DNA from: a virus
IMG/VR virus record: IMGVR_UViG_3300031523_000005
Span: 1-29,104 of that record
Direction: 5' to 3' (one strand)
DNA: 29,104 nucleotides
The position numbers were made by a program, and so were the translations under genes. Each line of letters starts with the position of its first letter. Within the stretch, counting starts at the first letter, position 1. Below are positions 2,841-26,709 of the stretch, one piece after another. Under the pieces are notes generated by a model. The model made no database searches and had not been told where the DNA came from. It saw only the letters and a program-made list of their open reading frames with translations.

Positions 2841-3131
2841 CTAGCCCCTACTCTTAGGGGGCTTATTGTCTAAATATTCTGCTACTTTATAATCACTAGA
2901 TACCATCATCAATTCCTCATATTCCAGTATTTGTTTAGGTAATGTACTGAATTTAAGTTCATTTATAGGTAGTCCATATTCTTTCCAAGTAAACTTAGAG
3001 ATAGCCAAGAACTTAAGTGTCCTATTATCTAAACTACAAAGGTCTTCTACTTGTTTATCTACTCGCTTCCTATTCCGTTCATTACCTTCCCTAGTCCACC
3101 CATTATCGATTGGAACATATCGCTTTGTGTA
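2841..3131 (-). CDS. -1 frameshift extension of the tail assembly chaperone (gpT-like part)
   Basis: This open frame has no plausible start codon. Its only Met codons are an M-M pair about 30 residues before the end, yet it runs open from the heptamer at 3131-3137 to a TAG at 2843-2841. Entering it by a -1 slip at T-TTT-TTT gives 136 residues of the upstream chaperone followed by 96 new residues, beginning Y-T-K-R-Y-V and rich in Lys/Arg/Asp, for a 232-residue fusion. This is the gpG/gpGT arrangement known in lambda and in most long-tailed phages, where a minority frameshift product binds the tape measure protein during tail assembly. The position between chaperone and tape measure supports this strongly. 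Frameshifting efficiency cannot be read from sequence. Confidence 0.82.
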   Translation of the reverse strand, partial: YTKRYVPIDNGWTREGNERNRKRVDKQVEDLCSLDNRTLKFLAISKFTWKEYGLPINELKFSTLPKQILEYEELMMVSSDYKVAEYLDNKPPKSRG

Positions 3132-3538
3132 AAAAAACCTTGGAAATTTACCTCCAATGCGTAGATAATAAGTTCCATCATCTCGTGAACTTTTTCCTTG
3201 AAGTGTTCGTCTATATTTATAGTCTGCCCTTCACAACTAGCACCTTGTAACATCTTATCTACTAAGTTTCTCATCTCAGGTTTATTGATATTATGAGAGA
3301 CAATAGTAAGTACTTCTTTGAATGTGTTCTGCTTTTCAAACATTGCAGCTTCTTCATCTACGTTTCTACTGTCTAAAACTTCTCCAAATACAGGACCAAT
3401 AGTCTCTAGTATTAATGTCCATCCATCCCAAGCTACCCAACCACTTAATGCTTGAATGCCGTATCTTTTACCACCAATAACTTTCTGTTTAAAGAAATCT
3501 TCTGGGTTTGGTGCTCCACCTTGTAATGTATTGCTCAT
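3059..3538 (-). CDS. Tail assembly chaperone (gpG-like, unshifted product)
   Basis: This 159-residue, mostly helical protein is encoded between the tail tube and tape measure genes. It begins M-S-N-T-L-Q-G-G-A-P-N-P and contains G-G-K-R-Y-G-I-Q-A-L-S-G-W-V-A-W-D-G-W near residues 22-40, a pattern I associate with chaperones in phages carrying DUF3383-type sheaths. The final 23 residues lie downstream of a slippery run of seven T residues, so a minority of ribosomes should produce a longer form. The ribosome-binding region is odd: instead of AGGAGG there is a simple GA repeat (GAGAGAGAGAGA) just before the ATG, also visible as a TC tract on the plus strand at 3547-3559. Function is inferred from position and the frameshift architecture. 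Confidence 0.78.
   Translation of the reverse strand: MSNTLQGGAPNPEDFFKQKVIGGKRYGIQALSGWVAWDGWTLILETIGPVFGEVLDSRNVDEEAAMFEKQNTFKEVLTIVSHNINKPEMRNLVDKMLQGASCEGQTINIDEHFKEKVHEMMELIIYALEVNFQGFFTQSDMFQSIMGGLGKVMNGIGSE
3131..3137 (-). promoter_or_regulatory. Slippery heptamer T-TTT-TTT for -1 ribosomal frameshifting
   Basis: In the frame of the chaperone the codons read GGT TTT TTT ACA, giving an X-XXY-YYZ heptamer made only of T. A slip of -1 changes the next codon from ACA to TAC and enters a 96-codon open frame ending at 2841. Codon phase was checked: 3538-3139 is 399, a multiple of three, and 3131-2843 is 288, also a multiple of three. Confidence 0.8.
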
Positions 3539-3577
3539 ATTGTTTCTCTCTCTCTCTCATTTCTATATTATATAAAC

Positions 3578-3601
3578 TAAAAAGGAGTCCGAAGACTCCT
3601 T
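3578..3601 (-). terminator. Rho-independent terminator after the tail tube gene
   Basis: On the minus strand an 8-bp perfect stem AAGGAGTC/GACTCCTT closes a TTCG tetraloop and is followed by TTT. It lies 15 nt after the tail tube stop and before the chaperone gene. It probably keeps tube and sheath transcripts high relative to the chaperone and tape measure. Confidence 0.88.
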
Positions 3602-3615
3602 ATTTAAAACATCTA

Positions 3616-4113
3616 TTACGCTAGGTTAACTTTAAGGTCTTTAATAGTCTGTACAAATGCCTTTGCATTAACAACATCTGTACTTTCAGTACCTAGTGGA
3701 TCTGGAATGTATTGTACATTCTCCACATAGAACATCCAAGTACGACTACTAGCCTCTACAGCTAAGTCTTGGTTAGCTGGCATATCTAGGAATGCACCCT
3801 TGAGGTAGGTAAGTACACCACCTGATTTATCAGATACCGTGATATCGTAAAATAGTGGTTTACGTGCTTTATCTTGAGCCTGTTGTATACCAGAACAAAA
3901 AGTATTTACTGCACTGTTTTGTTGTTGAACTTCAATATCAAAAGTGCCTGTCACATCAGCAGAATAAGTAAGACCTAATCTACCATCAGCAGAAATGTTC
4001 TTAGAAGTATTTTCTGAGTTACGGGTAATAGTAATACTATCCCATCCGTCTACGTTAATTGCACCACCAAAAGAGATATCTACATCTTTAGGGCTATATA
4101 CATTTTGAGCCAT
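3616..4113 (-). CDS. Tail tube protein (DUF3277-like)
   Basis: This 165-residue protein begins MAQNVYSPKDVDISFGGAI and contains V-D-G-W-D-S-I-T-I-T-R-N near residues 22-33 and a central D-V-T-G-T-F-D-I-E-V-Q-Q-Q-N-S strand. This is the layout of the DUF3277 structural family, whose genes sit beside DUF3383 sheath genes. The protein would polymerise into the inner tube of the contractile tail. The gene follows the sheath gene by 15 nt and is followed by a strong terminator, consistent with a high-copy virion protein. Beta-strand-rich composition with no membrane segment fits the role. Family call is from pattern memory plus synteny. Confidence 0.85.
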   Translation of the reverse strand: MAQNVYSPKDVDISFGGAINVDGWDSITITRNSENTSKNISADGRLGLTYSADVTGTFDIEVQQQNSAVNTFCSGIQQAQDKARKPLFYDITVSDKSGGVLTYLKGAFLDMPANQDLAVEASSRTWMFYVENVQYIPDPLGTESTDVVNAKAFVQTIKDLKVNLA

Positions 4114-4128
4114 AATTTATATCTCCTA

Positions 4129-5484
4129 TTATAAGCTTAGTGTGCCAGTCAACTCTACCATATGAATAGCGTTAGTTAACGTAGCTTTGAATGTGATCTG
4201 CTTGAATGTGCGTGAAGCCTTGTCAGCAGTGTTAAAAAGTGATTGGTCTGGAATAACAATAACAAAATCATCTTCAATGAAATTATGAGTTCCCTCTGAC
4301 GTATACAAAGACAAGACTGTCTGTAATACACTTCTGATTTGGTTTGCACCTTTGTTATTGAAAGCCACTTTAGACGCTTTCTGTCTGATAAGTAAGTTGG
4401 TTAAGTCAGCTTCAAGGTCAACCTGAAGATTATCTCTGCCTACAATATTATCAATATATTCGCCAGAAGCCATCTTACCTACTACAGTAATAACTGGATC
4501 AGAAATGCTACTTCCAACACGAGCAAAATAATCACCATTAACTTTCTTAAGGTTAGTCTGTTCTGTTGCTGTTAAGTCTTTACCTGAAGCATTCTTAGAA
4601 GGACTCACTGCTGCTACAATACGGTTAGCGTATGTAACTGAACCAGTAACTGCAAAAGCAATCTCTGCTAAAGCTGATACTTCTGGGAACTTAGTACTTG
4701 CTTCGTGATGGAAGAAAGCAGAAGAACGGAAGTAATTAGCGGTGTTAAGATCTGCAATCGTACCTGTTGGGGTAGACAGTAAATCATTTACCTCGTTCAT
4801 AGAAGTACGGAATACTTTTAACTTAGCTTCGATATCTGCTGCTGCTGCTAATACAAACGCATTAGACTTATCTTCTGCTGTGAAGTAGCGGTAGGCATCA
4901 TCTTCTAAAGAGATAGCTGCAATAGTAGCTGCTGCTAATTCCGTAGAGACTGCTTCGAAAGTTTCTACTAAATTTACTAAACCACCTACAGTATACCAAT
5001 CAGTACCTGAAACTATTTGAACTAATGTGATAGTTGATGCTGCACCACTACCTACTTTTGTTGCCGTAATCTTAGTAGAGAATATTGCATCTATAGCTGT
5101 GATAATATCATCTATAGTGGTCTCTTCTGTAGTATTGGCAGGGACAGTAATAGTTGACTGGGCTATAGTATTAGCTTGTAAAACAACTGTATGATTAGAA
5201 GTACTAGCTACAAAATTACTAAGTGATAGTATTGATGTAGTTTCTTGTCTACCAATCTTAATAGATGTAGGGCTTGGGTTTTGTGAAAATGCACCTTGTG
5301 CTGCAATGTATATACTAGAGGTAGTTGGAATACCATCTGTTGACATTGCTAAAGTGCTAGTGTAAGCTCGTACACGTTCTGAGAAGTAATTGTGCTTACC
5401 TGCAAACAGAATGGTACCGAAGCCTTGTCTAGACACAGAAGATGTGGCTAGTGCTATATTAGCTATGGCTAATTGTACTGACAT
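4129..5484 (-). CDS. Contractile tail sheath protein (DUF3383-like)
   Basis: This 451-residue protein begins MSVQLAIANIALATSSVSRQ and then F-G-T-I-L-F-A-G-K-H, the start I associate with DUF3383 sheath proteins. It is rich in Ala, Thr and Ser. Its C-terminal part holds a long strand-rich region, I-R-S-V-L-Q-T-V-L-S-L-Y-T-S-E-G-T, then F-K-Q-I-T-F-K-A-T-L-T-N-A-I-H and V-E-L-T-G-T-L-S-L. That end, 'tFkat LtnaIh..ElTGtl', is typical of sheath subunits that exchange terminal strands between neighbours. It has a good Shine-Dalgarno (TTAGGAG) 6 nt before ATG. It makes the phage a myovirus: sheath contraction drives the tube through the host envelope. The gene order neck terminator, sheath, tube supports the assignment. 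Confidence 0.88.
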   Translation of the reverse strand: MSVQLAIANIALATSSVSRQGFGTILFAGKHNYFSERVRAYTSTLAMSTDGIPTTSSIYIAAQGAFSQNPSPTSIKIGRQETTSILSLSNFVASTSNHTVVLQANTIAQSTITVPANTTEETTIDDIITAIDAIFSTKITATKVGSGAASTITLVQIVSGTDWYTVGGLVNLVETFEAVSTELAAATIAAISLEDDAYRYFTAEDKSNAFVLAAAADIEAKLKVFRTSMNEVNDLLSTPTGTIADLNTANYFRSSAFFHHEASTKFPEVSALAEIAFAVTGSVTYANRIVAAVSPSKNASGKDLTATEQTNLKKVNGDYFARVGSSISDPVITVVGKMASGEYIDNIVGRDNLQVDLEADLTNLLIRQKASKVAFNNKGANQIRSVLQTVLSLYTSEGTHNFIEDDFVIVIPDQSLFNTADKASRTFKQITFKATLTNAIHMVELTGTLSL

Positions 5485-13797: not shown

Positions 13798-14916
13798 TTA
13801 TGATGTCACCTCATTTTCAGAGATATATTTAGAAAGTAGACTTTTTCTCTTCCTCCCTTTAACAAGGGACTTTATGTAAGTAATAGGAATATCTGTTACA
13901 TCACTGATGTCTGTGTAATTTCTTTTATCTATAAAGTGGAGGTCATAAACTTTAATAACTTGCGCTACAGTATACTGCTTCGATTTGGTAAAAGTATAAC
14001 CTTCTTCTTTTGCCCAACGGTACAAACAAGTTTTTGGGTACTTCCCATCTGATAGTAGGGACGAAAAACTCTCACCACTGCTTAATCTTATTTTCACTTC
14101 TTCTTTTAATGATGCCTTTACCATGTACCTTTTAGCTTGAGGGTTATCAGTGTGGTATATATCTAGTAACGAGTTTCTTTTATTACCTGCTAATATAGAT
14201 CTAATATACGTTTCAGATATCCCACTAATCTCTACAATACTCTCCATATGAATATTATCTTCATAATACAGTTTAAGTACTTCCATCACTTTATGATCTG
14301 GGTACTTTTGTATAGATGGTATGCTTCTTGACTTACCTTCATCCCTAAGTAATTTAGCTTCCCTCAGAGCATGTATACCTTCTCTTTCAAAAAGACCTTT
14401 ACACTTAGCTCCTCTCAATATATAGGTCAAGTAGCTAGCGCACATACTAAGTTTTTCCGATATATACCTTGTAGTTTTACCTTCCTTATAGTAAAGATGG
14501 TATACTTCAAGGATTTGTTGTTCTGTATACTTTGTAGGTAAACTTGGTAAGTTTTTAGCAATGTAACCTTTTACTTTATCAGGGTAATCATATCTTGTCT
14601 TAGATACATTGCTGAGTACCCCACCTTCCGCCATTACTCCATAATAAGATATTAAGTATTCTTCTAAATTATATGCTTCTTCTTCACTGTCATGGTAGGA
14701 GATTATTTGTCTTTTTATATTACCTACACCATACTTCTTTATTATATTGGACTTAATAGAACCATTATTTATTCTTTGAGGGGTAAAGTGGTTATTTATT
14801 CTTAAACCCAACCCTTTACCAATATAGAATACACTATTGTTTGGTCTAAGTAGCATATAGACATAATACTTACCATCAAAATTAGGGTCCACTCTATAAG
14901 GACTACGTGCCGTCAT
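13798..14916 (-). CDS. GIY-YIG homing-type endonuclease with repeated helix-turn-helix units
   Basis: This is a 372-residue protein. The N-terminal GIY-YIG nuclease has Y-V-Y at 18-20, F-Y-I-G-K-G at 30-35, the catalytic Arg at 39 and Glu at 85-86 in N-L-E-E-Y-L-I. The C-terminal two-thirds holds three related ~47-residue units, at about 130-176, 205-251 and 315-361. Each runs Y-x-x-x-x-V/I-x-x-V-x-x-L-Y, then I-S/V, then Y-I/L-x-x-I-L-x-G-x-K-R-x-x-L-L, and looks like a helix-turn-helix. The start overlaps the portal stop (ATGA). Such free-standing nucleases spread by cutting cognate phage genomes. Its insertion separates portal from protease, normally adjacent. Confidence 0.82.
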   Translation of the reverse strand: MTARSPYRVDPNFDGKYYVYMLLRPNNSVFYIGKGLGLRINNHFTPQRINNGSIKSNIIKKYGVGNIKRQIISYHDSEEEAYNLEEYLISYYGVMAEGGVLSNVSKTRYDYPDKVKGYIAKNLPSLPTKYTEQQILEVYHLYYKEGKTTRYISEKLSMCASYLTYILRGAKCKGLFEREGIHALREAKLLRDEGKSRSIPSIQKYPDHKVMEVLKLYYEDNIHMESIVEISGISETYIRSILAGNKRNSLLDIYHTDNPQAKRYMVKASLKEEVKIRLSSGESFSSLLSDGKYPKTCLYRWAKEEGYTFTKSKQYTVAQVIKVYDLHFIDKRNYTDISDVTDIPITYIKSLVKGRKRKSLLSKYISENEVTS

Positions 14917-16498: not shown

Positions 16499-16574
16499 TG
16501 GTGCTGATAGTAGGAGTCGAACCCACGACATCTTCATTACAAGTGAAGCGCTCTACCTACTGAGCTATATCAGC
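16499..16574 (-). tRNA. tRNA-Thr (anticodon TGT)
   Basis: A full cloverleaf can be drawn: acceptor GCTGATA/TATCAGC, D stem GCTC/GAGC, anticodon stem CTTCA/TGAAG with loop CTTGTAA (anticodon TGT, reading ACA), and T stem GTGGG/CCTAC with loop TTCGACT. The discriminator A and a CCA end are encoded (16502-16499). It sits in the leader of the portal mRNA, just after the promoter at 16651-16679. Confidence 0.95.
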
Positions 16575-16708: not shown

Positions 16709-18514
16709 CTATTTTGTACGATTACGATGCTCCGCGAGGAGCGTAGGGTTATTCATGTTGGGTATGGAGACTGGTTTGGATACCCTTTCTCTGGATATAA
16801 AATTAAAAGCAGAACCTGCTGCATCTAATAAATCATCTTTGTATCCATTATTCTTATCTCCATCAAAGTTTTCCAGTTCAAGGTATAGGTAATCTAATAC
16901 TTTACGATCAAAAGAATCAGTGACAAAGAAAACAAAACCATTATGACAGGCAGCACAGAAAGGTTCGAACTTCTTTATCTTACCTTTGTTATAAGCCATT
17001 GGATCTTTTTTAACGATAAAACCTTCTTCTTGTAAGTCCTTAGAGTGTTGTTCTAGCTCAATTTTTCCTGCTTGAGCTGGATCTTGAGGGAGTACTATGA
17101 TAGTATCACTGCCATCTAAGTTCGCTTGATCAAGTATAAGCTGGTTTCTTGCGCCCACTTTTTTCCTAAACCTACTTAATTGTCTATCCTCTTCATCCTT
17201 AATATAGTTACCAAAGACATAGTAGTTCTTGTTAACATCTTTACCTATTGAAACACTAGCTGTGTAATCTGGGTCATAACTACTTTCTTTAGATTTCTCC
17301 ACACATGCCTTATCCCATCCTCTACACAGTTTTAGGTTATTAGGTACTTCTGCTAAAGTCACTTCATTTATTGTAGTTCTTTCCCATACACCATTGCTAG
17401 CTTTCTGATAATGCCAGTTGCCATCTAATAACATTGCTGCATTGGCAGGGTCATTAGCTTGTAAGTCATCAGCATATTCAGGGTTATTAGCTAACATTAG
17501 GGGGTTGTCTACAAGACTAGAACTTACTGCTGTATATGCTCGTGGTTTACTACTAGGGAATCGTTCTCTTAAGTCTTCTTCAGCCCAAGATGTATGTATC
17601 TCTCCTCTATCAAACACATAATATCTTAGTCTACCATTAAGACTCCTATCTAGAACACCGTACCTTGAATCATTTTCATCTTGTATGATAAAAGCTTCAA
17701 GGTATTTACTTTTTACAAAATGGTTTGGGTCGGGGTTCATCGAACAACGGATGAATGAAGGGTATTTAGAGTTACTCCGCATACGAGTACGGATATAATT
17801 GTAACTACCCTCATCAAAATGCGTAAATTCGTCAAAAAATGCTGCTGAGAGTTGTGCCCCCTGCCAGTTTTCTACTGCATCTTTCTCTGAAGTGAGGTAT
17901 GAAAATTCTACGGTAGCTCCGCTAGGAAAGGTTATCTTATAATTGCCTTGGCTATCTATTATTTTTGCTTTACCTTTATACTTCCCCTTATTCTTACCCG
18001 TTTGATGTATTAATAGCGGGCGGTACATAGACTTAGCTTCTTTCCAAAGTGAACGACTCAATTGTTTCAGTGTCTTTCTGAAACAAACACCATACCATTC
18101 TGGATCATCAACGAAGCGCAGTATATACAAAAGAAGGGCAAAAGATTTCCCACCACCCAGTGGGTTGTTATGTAGCTCGTTAAACTACTCTGGTATTTCT
18201 ACCAGTATCGGACTATATCTTCAGTATGTTTATACTGCCTTCCGTTTCGACTTCACTTGAAGCCTACTCTACTCACTTACCCGATAACGTAATTATCTTC
18301 TGCTTTCGATAGTCTCTGAACGTTCCCCTAACGAGGCTTCGCTGCTGATTACCTACATCTTAATGTTTAGGTTTCCAGACAATTAAAAAGGTTTAATGCG
18401 ACCAGTGGATTTTTAAGCCGCACCACCATAAAATACTAAAGGTATCTCTGGTGGGATATTCATAAAAGTCTCCTGCGAGCCTATTTGGGGTCGCAAAATG
18501 CTATTTCTACTCAT
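16709..18514 (-). CDS. terL: Terminase large subunit, interrupted by a group I intron (exons 18514-18416 and 18157-16709)
   Basis: This is the ATPase-nuclease of the DNA packaging motor. Exon 1 (33 codons) starts M-S-R-N-S-I-L-R-P-Q-I-G-S-Q-E with GAGGA 7 nt upstream and ends F-Y-G-G-A-A. Exon 2 resumes with G-G-G-K-S-F-A-L-L. Joined, they restore the Walker A motif G-G-A-A-G-G-G-K-S at residues 30-38 in a 515-residue protein. Walker B is A-A-F-F-D-E at 138-143 (D142, E143). The nuclease acidic residues lie in R-G-W-D-K-A, L-P-Q-D-P and K-D-D-L-L-D-A-A-G-S. Without splicing, exon 1 runs into TAA and only a 35-codon peptide is made. The ATG at 18130 in exon 2 is not a true start: it lacks the P-loop. 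Confidence 0.92.
18158..18415 (-). ncRNA. Group I intron (IA-like, td-related) in terL
   Basis: This 258-nt insertion has the group I hallmarks. P1: exon end GCGGCT pairs with intron GGTCGC, closing on the required U-G wobble. P10: exon 2 GGTGG pairs with intron CCACT just before the guide. The P7 strands are AGACTA (near 18310-18315) and ATAGTCC within AAGATATAGTCC. TCGAAACG between them and the CTGGTA-GAAA-TACCAG hairpin (P9, GAAA loop) also fit T4 td-like introns. The last base is G. It has no ORF of its own. The splice sites are fixed by both base pairing and the restored Walker A codons. Confidence 0.93.
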
Positions 18515-19260
18515 TATTTTTCCTCGTCTCTTACTCTTCCATGATTGTCATGGTAACCTAATGGTACCTCTGCCTCTTTCCTAGCTTCAATAGCTTCCTC
18601 TACGGTATTGTATGTACCTATATGAGTCTGCTTCCCATTTAATGTTATGCTAGCTATGAATCTACCTGATCTAACCTTATATACACCACTTTGACCGTAC
18701 TTATTATTAGTGTATAATGTTAAGTTTCTCATATTAGTTTTATGTGTAACGGCTCTTAGGTTCATAACCCTGTTGTCAAGACCATCCCCGTTTTCATGGT
18801 CTGTTACTAAATCCGCAGGGGTGTCTAGTATTAACCTGTGAAGAGCTACTCTCTTATTATCTATCTTAGCGTAGGTATAATAATTCTTGCTATGAGGGGC
18901 TTTGTATGCATACCATTTGTTTCTAGTCATATATTTGTAGTACATATCGGTGTCTACCGTACAGAATTTATTTGTAAAGGTTTCTGTGGAAACATCTACT
19001 ACTGTTAGTCCACCATCTATATGTGTTACTGTGTTGACTCTGCAGGAACAACCATTACCACAACCCATACCTTTTACTTTATTCTTTACATGGGTAGATG
19101 AGGTGACCAGTTTCTTGTTGCACAAAGTACATTCTACATCCCACATAGGGTGTTTTCCTTTTTTCTCTACAAAAGATAATACTAATATATCTCCGTATAC
19201 CTTTCCAGTTAAATCCATAAAGGCTTTATTCTTTTTTAATTCTTCTAGTGTTTTACTCAC
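18514..19260 (-). CDS. HNH-AP2 homing endonuclease next to terL
   Basis: This 248-residue protein starts with GTG at 19260 behind GGAG. Residues 18-73 hold a zinc-ribbon-like part (W-D-V-E-C-T-L-C at 40-47, G-C-G-N-G-C-S-C at 66-73). The HNH nuclease has A-L-H-R-L at 139-143, T-D-H-E-N-G-D-G at 153-160 and N-R-V-M-N-L-R at 163-169. Residues 190-231 form an AP2-type DNA-binding domain (S-G-V-Y-K-V...F-I-A-S-I...H-I-G-T-Y-x-T-x-E-E-A). Its TAA shares one base with the terL ATG. It has its own strong promoter. Its position beside an intron that lacks an ORF suggests it may help that intron spread. HNH-AP2 identity is secure; the link to the intron is inference. Confidence 0.88.
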   Translation of the reverse strand: MSKTLEELKKNKAFMDLTGKVYGDILVLSFVEKKGKHPMWDVECTLCNKKLVTSSTHVKNKVKGMGCGNGCSCRVNTVTHIDGGLTVVDVSTETFTNKFCTVDTDMYYKYMTRNKWYAYKAPHSKNYYTYAKIDNKRVALHRLILDTPADLVTDHENGDGLDNRVMNLRAVTHKTNMRNLTLYTNNKYGQSGVYKVRSGRFIASITLNGKQTHIGTYNTVEEAIEARKEAEVPLGYHDNHGRVRDEEK

Positions 19261-23436: not shown

Positions 23437-23678
23437 TACGACTCACCTCTGGTATGTTCAATCCTAAAGAGTCTAAATCTAACTCTTCTTCTTCAACGGG
23501 ATAATTTGATTTGTTGGAACACTTATTACAATAATCTTCTTCTACTCTCATTGTAGTTGTCTTTCCTACCTCTGTTGGGTGAGGGATCAAGATGCTACGA
23601 TAAATGAGTGCAGGAGGTAACATAGAATTACAGCAAGCGCACCTAATGAGTCACCTTCTTAGTGATTGATGGTTTCAT
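23426..23678 (-). pseudogene. Zinc-ribbon protein gene with a broken or shifted frame
   Basis: The best start is the ATG at 23678, overlapping the previous stop (ATGA) with AAGGAG 6 nt upstream. It reads M-K-P-S-I-T-K-K-V-T-H and then TAG at 23645-23643. In the +1 frame, right after that TAG region, the sequence reads R-C-A-C-C-N-S-M-L-P-P and continues 65 more codons to 23426, including Y-C-N-K-C. Joined, this makes an 83-residue protein with two C-x-x-C pairs, a typical small phage zinc ribbon. The ATG at 23623 has no Shine-Dalgarno site and loses the first Cys pair. So there is a single-base insertion, an assembly error, or programmed +1 frameshifting. Confidence 0.65.
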
Positions 23679-24268
23679 AGCCATCTCCTTGTTAGTGCCT
23701 CTTTTATAAGAGGGTCTATTATATCTTCTGCTAATTTTATAGCATATTTATGTTTCTGATTTTTCCAAGATAGGTGGGCTTCTAGTTCAGTGTCAAAAAC
23801 ACCTAGGTAGTTGCTACTGCTTCTGTTAAAAGGGTTATTGCACCTTGCTACATAACATACCTTTTTACCTGAATAGGAGGTGACACCTATCATAAGGGTA
23901 CCTCTTGTGGCTAAACTGTCTGTAAAGAAAGAGTTTATTGCTTGCGTGACAAAACTACAGCAGGAGGGGGAGTATATTTTATTCCCTTCAAAAAGTATGT
24001 CTTTGTCCAAATGTAAACCTTTCCACTCTTGTTCTACCATCCACGCCCTAAAGTTGCTGAATGTAAGCCAAGACTCACAAACGGAACAACCTTCGTAGGT
24101 GTGTGTGCCTTTACTATAACACCTACTGACCATATCTCGCCACTTTGCATAGTAAGGGCAAATCCAAGTTTGTACTCGTTTTATTTTCCCACAAGGCTGT
24201 GGTACATTTTCAGATAATTTTACGGTATAAGGTGCGTCATTGTTTGCCACGCCACAAAGTATACTCAT
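23675..24268 (-). CDS. HNH-like endonuclease family protein (copy 2)
   Basis: This 197-residue protein is a clear paralogue of the one at 26071-26709. Shared core: C-P-Y-Y-x-x-W, R-C-Y-S, Y-x-x-C-x-V-C-E-x-W-L-T-F-S-N-F, W-M-V-x-Q-x-W, L-D-K-D-x-L, Y-S-P-x-x-C and a C-terminal L-G-x-F/Y-x-T-E-x-E-A-H-L-x-W-K. The final part looks like an AP2-type DNA-binding domain. 'LDKD...GN..YSP..C.F' occupies the place of an HNH centre with changed His. Many phages carry such genes singly as mobile elements. It is led by a perfect promoter (24362-24390), and its stop overlaps the zinc-ribbon start. Nuclease activity is inferred. Confidence 0.72.
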   Translation of the reverse strand: MSILCGVANNDAPYTVKLSENVPQPCGKIKRVQTWICPYYAKWRDMVSRCYSKGTHTYEGCSVCESWLTFSNFRAWMVEQEWKGLHLDKDILFEGNKIYSPSCCSFVTQAINSFFTDSLATRGTLMIGVTSYSGKKVCYVARCNNPFNRSSSNYLGVFDTELEAHLSWKNQKHKYAIKLAEDIIDPLIKEALTRRWL

Positions 24269-26070: not shown

Positions 26071-26709
26071 TTATAATTCCTCTTCATAAATTGTGTAATT
26101 TTTATATTTATTTCTTAGTGCCTCTGCTACCCGTTCATCTGTCACATATTCTGAGTCAGCTAACTCACAAGCATAAATGTGTTTCTGCTTCTTCCATGCT
26201 AAGTGAGCTTCTATTTCTGTAGAATACCTACCTAATGTCGTCCCCTTACTATTAAAAGGATTACTGATTGCAGACTTGAAATTACCTGTGTATTTATCCC
26301 AATAACAACCTATTAGGTGTTCACCTCTTGAGGTTTTATTGACCATAATAAAAGTATTAATATCGTGACCTATAAATACACAAGTCCTTGGAGAATATAC
26401 ACCATTACCTCCTACCAGTAAATCTTTATCTAATGCATTACTCTCCCAATCTTGATCTACCATCCACGATTTAAAGTTACTAAATGTTAACCATTCTTCA
26501 CAAACAGTACAGTCTTTGTAGGTAGGGGATCTCTTGTGTAAACTGCCACTATAGCACCTTTGTAACATACTTGTCCACCTCTGATAATAAGGACATCCTA
26601 TATACTTGTAACCTCCACTTGCAATCCTCTCTTCTGGAAATACCTTATAACTTGTAGGTTCATCCACATCATTAATACCTACACCATAGACTAGTTTCTT
26701 ATCACTCAT
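26071..26709 (-). CDS. HNH-like endonuclease family protein (copy 1)
   Basis: This 212-residue paralogue of the gene at 23675-24268 has the same core: C-P-Y-Y-Q-R-W-T-S-M-L-Q-R-C-Y-S, C-T-V-C-E-E-W-L-T-F-S-N-F-K-S-W-M, L-D-K-D-L-L-V-G-G-N-G-V-Y-S-P and Y-S-T-E-I-E-A-H-L-A-W-K-K-Q-K. A short variable N-terminus (Y-G-V-G-I-N-D) may fit the insertion site. It is embedded in an operon by overlaps with both neighbours, so it was inserted cleanly between genes. Likely a free-standing homing-type nuclease with AP2-like C-terminus; the HNH centre is not canonical, so activity is inferred. Confidence 0.72.
   Translation of the reverse strand: MSDKKLVYGVGINDVDEPTSYKVFPEERIASGGYKYIGCPYYQRWTSMLQRCYSGSLHKRSPTYKDCTVCEEWLTFSNFKSWMVDQDWESNALDKDLLVGGNGVYSPRTCVFIGHDINTFIMVNKTSRGEHLIGCYWDKYTGNFKSAISNPFNSKGTTLGRYSTEIEAHLAWKKQKHIYACELADSEYVTDERVAEALRNKYKNYTIYEEEL

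Follow-up and report, generated by a model that had tools for sequence, protein, structure and literature searches.

The large terminase gene (terL) of this virus is interrupted, within the codons of the ATP-binding Walker A motif (P-loop), by a group I intron devoid of an open reading frame (ORF); the best explanation overall, with a probability of about 0.8, is a self-splicing TerL intron belonging to a horizontally spread family that moves by endonuclease-driven homing. The window, that is the whole 29,104-base IMG/VR virus record analysed here, carries the late genes on its minus strand (Table 1). A stop codon lies directly 3′ of terL exon 1, whose product ends in FYGGAA, and the frame is taken up again 258 nt further on with GGGKS at position 18157; joining both exons restores the frame and yields a single 515-residue TerL, with the intron separating an Ala codon from a Gly codon within Walker A (FYGGAA^GGGKS). 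Exon 2 on its own matches Pfam Terminase_6N (E 1e-12). The Rfam group I model RF00028, a search with which had been proposed together with the original prediction, aligns along its full length with positions 18453-18189 of the minus strand, scoring 92.8 bits with an E-value of 6.9e-23, well over the gathering score of 50, and it is the only group I match given by Rfam in the whole record. The interval predicted for the intron turned out to be exact, as did the break and resumption of the frame. A truncated terminase call starting from 18130 had also been anticipated, and the ORF list indeed has the gene begin at a TTG at 18130, so that the whole of GGGKS would be lost. The intron, its boundaries and the restored frame are established at the level of sequence.

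Table 1. Positions of the features discussed in the window
Feature	Position	Strand	Description
Free-standing homing-endonuclease-type gene	18514..19260	-	248 aa; HNH_3, PF13392, E 6e-6
terL exon 1	18416..18514	-	33 codons, ATG at 18514; MSRNSILRPQIGSQETFMNIPPEIPLVFYGGAA; ends FYGGAA (GCG GCT)
P1 5′ strand, in exon 1	18416..18425	-	TGGTGCGGCT; last base U pairs with G
Group I intron	18158..18415	-	258 nt, ORF-less, phase 0; last base G at 18158; RF00028
P10 strand, in intron	18404..18408	-	CCACT; partner is exon 2 GGTGG, 18157-18153
P1 internal guide strand	18394..18403	-	GGTCGCATTA
Conserved 3′ core	18208..18222	-	GAAGATATAGTCCGA, including the P7 3′ strand; RF00028 match
P9 hairpin	18190..18205	-	CTGGTA-GAAA-TACCAG; RF00028 match
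terL exon 2	16709..18157	-	GGGKSFALLL..., 482 codons plus stop; Pfam Terminase_6N
tRNA-Thr (TGT) gene	16499-16574	-	between terL and the portal gene
GIY-YIG nuclease gene	13798-14916	-	between portal and protease genes, overlapping the portal stop
Two paralogues	23675-24268 and 26071-26709	-	pairwise identity 41.7%; relatives of nuclease-like genes that adjoin terL in L281 and L029

At the splice sites, a longer P1 of 10 pairs can be drawn (TGGTGCGGCT with GGTCGCATTA) that has a U.G pair at the 5′ splice site; in the guide pairing of GGTGCGGCT with GGTCGCATT, the last exon base, U, stands opposite a G of the guide strand. This wobble, the P10 pairing (GGTGG with CCACT) and the GAAA-capped P9 hairpin were all found where they had been predicted, and the 3′ end of the intron is the G characteristic of the group. 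The splice sites are regarded as fixed because the RNA pairing and the protein join, which restores GGAAGGGKS, agree. Among seven introns located at the Walker A motif, 21 of the 34 predicted consensus pairs display at least one compensatory double change. P1 also appears in the fold of the single strand; since the z-score of the whole-intron fold is a weak -1.9, the covariance model was relied upon. The extra sequence, including a hairpin, found between P7 and P3, where td-like introns have their P7.1/P7.2 elements, fits subgroup IA, to which the intron may belong.

A terL gene that is broken, or expressed as two pieces with no splicing at all, would account for the stop codon directly after exon 1; this reading deserves next to no credence in view of the complete group I fold with its compensatory changes, the intact remainder of TerL and a counterpart that does splice. 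That counterpart is terL of the Vibrio phage ICP1, whose splicing was demonstrated in 2023 by RNA-seq, RT-PCR and Sanger sequencing (Barth et al., PMC10448857); by homology, splicing of the window terL is nearly certain. The window terL is a new case of an arrangement already known from ICP1 and an intron in terL is not new in kind, so the novelty implied by the original prediction is lower. The two cases share the gene (the TerL proteins are 50.6% identical), the Walker A motif, which the text of the ICP1 paper does not mention, an ORF-less intron of about 260 nt and a nuclease gene immediately preceding exon 1, which in ICP1 is Gp130 (PMC10448857). They differ in that the ICP1 intron is inserted 3 nt further upstream (GGA^AGGGKS), is only 57% identical to that of the window and is accompanied by a GIY-YIG-like T5orf172 nuclease instead of an HNH_3 enzyme.

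Group I introns, some of them proven to splice, are also known in terL of LL-H, rV5, SIOphi and KASIA; in contrast to the window, several of these contain a nuclease inside the intron, and none is described in the texts consulted as lying in Walker A (PMC3606486, PMC11878797, PMC8541194). A different kind of selfish element, the intein, occupies adjacent positions of the TerL Walker A motif in mycobacteriophages, where splicing takes place in the protein rather than the RNA and the main sites fall at or after the GK codons (PMC5050341).

How frequently the P-loop of terminases is interrupted was assessed by scanning IMG/VR viral contigs for the conserved 3′ core of the intron joined to a downstream G-x-G-K-S/T motif. 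This gave 62 places, 61 of which are TerL Walker A motifs (TerL being recognised by BLAST); the same pattern and test, applied to bacterial and archaeal genomes totalling 257 billion bases, returned 22 matches and no TerL, which argues that the viral matches are not due to chance. Insertion sites were assigned for 28 nonredundant introns with a fixed 5′ site (two of them, L003 and L007, placed by hand); a locus was left aside where the motif in exon 1 does not conform to GGxx or has no U. Four sites, spaced three bases apart and all at codon boundaries, are occupied: G^GxAGxGK (2 introns), GG^xAGxGK (6), GGx^AGxGK (7) and GGxA^GxGK (13, including the window). A group I intron requires a U before its 5′ splice site; we infer from the genetic code that only codon boundaries are used because, in Gly (GGN) and Ala (GCN) codons, U is possible solely at the third position. 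A candidate 678-nt intron in L083 proved to be a false match lying inside the nuclease ORF of that locus.

Five introns at the GGxA^GxGK site (L005, L006, L007, L040 and L065) have a displaced P10, in which the 5′ end of the intron is complementary to exon 2 from position +6/+7 onward instead of to its first bases; this complementarity covaries with the exon (AGGTAAGAG/CTCTTACCT, GGTAAAAGT/ACTTTTACC, GGTAAG/CTTACC and TGGAAA/TTTCCA). Some terL genes harbor two or three group I introns: L007 (Vibrio phage VnaP) at 2904-4762, L005 at 2911-4085 and L040 at 622-837 and about 1130-1336. In L040, the second intron is partly similar to the Walker A intron of the same gene (86% over 71 nt), suggesting that an intron may have spread to a second site within one gene.

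RF00028 did not reach E 0.01 on the ICP1 intron (L012, 2673-2934), which splices according to the literature, nor on the terL intron of L002. Surveys based on Rfam would therefore miss the ICP1 intron lineage; for the same reason, lack of an Rfam match was not taken as a sign of an empty allele, and alleles were called empty by reading the motif itself. The annotated start of ICP1 terL, flagged as having a 'poor ribosome-binding site', lies inside the intron, among its final bases.

The introns follow their insertion site rather than the terminase that hosts them. On a tree built from intron cores, with the guide region excluded, the site label changes 5 times, as against a mean of 13.2 and a minimum of 9 over 300 shuffles, and 9 times when mapped on a tree of the TerL proteins from these loci. 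The ICP1 intron shares 82% and 81% identity with its counterparts in L031 and L037, whose TerL proteins match that of ICP1 at only 33% and 28% identity; conversely, the TerL sister of ICP1, L022 (79%), has its intron at another site and the two introns are 59% identical. Taken together, these comparisons indicate a horizontal, site-specific spread of the introns among viruses. Site-specific lineages would be equally expected if the introns had moved by reverse splicing steered by their internal guide sequences (IGS), with no homing at the DNA level, and the IGS of every intron fits its own site; this route is nevertheless very improbable, since it requires reverse transcription and recombination, the window shows no sign of such an enzyme and the association with nucleases is left unexplained.

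Empty alleles are readily found. J2-1, the TerL sister of the window (61% identical), has an uninterrupted FYGGAAGGGKS and no nuclease gene upstream of terL; two scans each found intact Walker A motifs in at least 120 contigs, and close IMG/VR relatives exist both with and without the intron. The original statement that empty alleles can always be invaded thus holds as to their existence, in J2-1 and IMG/VR relatives, while 'always' is too strong, as many intact alleles persist. In L023 and L070, an intron of 237 nt occurs along with a nuclease gene; L233, L271, L223 and L327, with TerL proteins 94-96% identical to theirs, lack both, and terS is followed almost directly by terL. The presence of many close intronless relatives also bears on the notion that the intron is a regulatory switch on a late packaging gene, retained for a splicing reaction sensitive to GTP or to the growth state. 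A 'molecular on-switch' has been put forward for phage introns in genes of NTP-using proteins (PMC11878797); even so, a regulatory role is improbable here, as introns that follow the insertion site and not the TerL lineage look like parasitism. As separate observations on the mobility of the gene, the flanks of Barba19A (L009) and Barba1S (L205) are 98.8% identical around entirely different terL genes, which is a swap of the terL gene, and Barba19A and L038 have P-loop introns at different sites with no adjacent nuclease gene.

Most relevant to the mobility of the intron is a gene absent from the original prediction: an HNH gene abuts terL exon 1 so closely that its stop overlaps the terL ATG (TAATG). 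An ORF-less intron with an adjoining free-standing nuclease gene is the structure of a collaborative homing pair, and the same layout is seen for phage T3 and for psbA/F-CphI of cyanophage S-PM2 (Bonocora and Shub 2009; Zeng et al. 2009, as cited in PMC3984707 and PMC10448857). As those citing papers present them, the T3 and S-PM2 systems involve other host genes, and cutting of the intron insertion site by the endonuclease was shown there, in contrast to the pair in the window, which is known from sequence. The window contains three more genes that are of, or resemble, the homing-endonuclease type. One, the GIY-YIG gene, is a further insertion of this type in the packaging/head operon; the other two, the paralogues, gave no Pfam match and probably represent an unrecognised homing-endonuclease family.

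In the mechanism we favor, P1 and P10 would align the exons in the pre-mRNA, an exogenous G would attack after the U of GCU, and exon joining would give back a complete packaging ATPase. The intron would be a member of a related family that spread horizontally and settled at precise positions within the TerL P-loop: a nuclease would cut the empty P-loop, and repair from an intron-bearing genome would copy the intron, often together with the nuclease gene beside exon 1 (collaborative homing). The cutting enzyme today would most likely be the free-standing neighbour, acting in trans; homing of this kind is likely, and the HNH enzyme of the window would then cut the intronless P-loop site.

For ICP1, Barth et al. 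proposed either collaborative homing or nuclease turnover (PMC10448857). Under turnover, the upstream HNH gene would be an unrelated selfish gene that homes upstream of terL to a target of its own, the former nuclease of the intron, whether carried or borrowed, having been lost; we regard this as a serious contender with the odds somewhat against it. It fits the variety of nucleases within one intron lineage and site, namely T5orf172 in ICP1, HNH_3 in L031 and NUMOD4-HNH in L037. It also fits L034 and L052, a pair with about 97% identity in the terL region and the intron in both, their main difference there being a nuclease gene found in L052 only, gained or lost with the intron unchanged. Several intact loci (L248, L308, L218, L268, L281, L284 and L245) have a nuclease gene and no intron, and L002, L034, L038 and L009 have the intron and no nuclease gene. 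What speaks against turnover is the joint presence or absence of both elements in L023 and its relatives, and a strong raw excess of nuclease genes beside intron-bearing terL. A nuclease-type gene lies directly upstream in 30 of 45 nonredundant intron loci (25 recognised by Pfam and 5 by similarity or inspection), as compared with 0 of 87 general intact TerL loci (YGGAxGGGKS) among the matches listed. Since these general controls are too distant, terS dominating upstream, intact loci with a related TerL were added, and 5 of these 59 have such a gene. Fisher's test gives p 5e-15 (25/45 vs 0/87) and p 5e-10 (30/45 vs 5/59), both uncorrected for kinship and with the control sets scored differently, by Pfam for the general set and by phmmer against the nucleases found for the related one. 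A phylogeny-corrected pair test, underpowered, yields about 4.6 pairs for the link and 1.3 against (median p 0.375); because relatives are not independent and this test lacks power, the nuclease-intron link is suggestive only. The free-standing nuclease genes directly upstream of intact, intronless terL in L284, L314, L252, L245, L248 and L268 constitute natural material for testing what such enzymes cut.

Nuclease and intron also reassort: the HNH protein of the window shares 57.6% identity across 205 aa with the nuclease encoded upstream of L031 terL, although the L031 intron differs from that of the window in both lineage and site. In a broader and still tentative reading, to which we give a little less than even odds, phage group I introns of several lineages would use the TerL Walker A motif as a general target, every lineage keeping to a single one of four neighbouring codon boundaries; they would move between unrelated viruses and be paired with interchangeable free-standing nucleases (HNH, NUMOD4-HNH, T5orf172, GIY-YIG) that occupy a single position upstream of exon 1. 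If true, any nuclease recognising the P-loop could mobilise any intron that interrupts it. No description of four sites, site-tied intron lineages and swapped nucleases was found in the literature searched. An intron in Walker A means that the terminases of many viruses are mis-annotated, the predicted protein losing its ATP-binding motif. What was a curiosity of ICP1 becomes a recurrent pattern of several intron lineages, four codon boundaries, one ATPase motif and swapped nucleases, and it makes testable the question as to whether free-standing nucleases and ORF-less introns are loose evolutionary partners or just neighbours.
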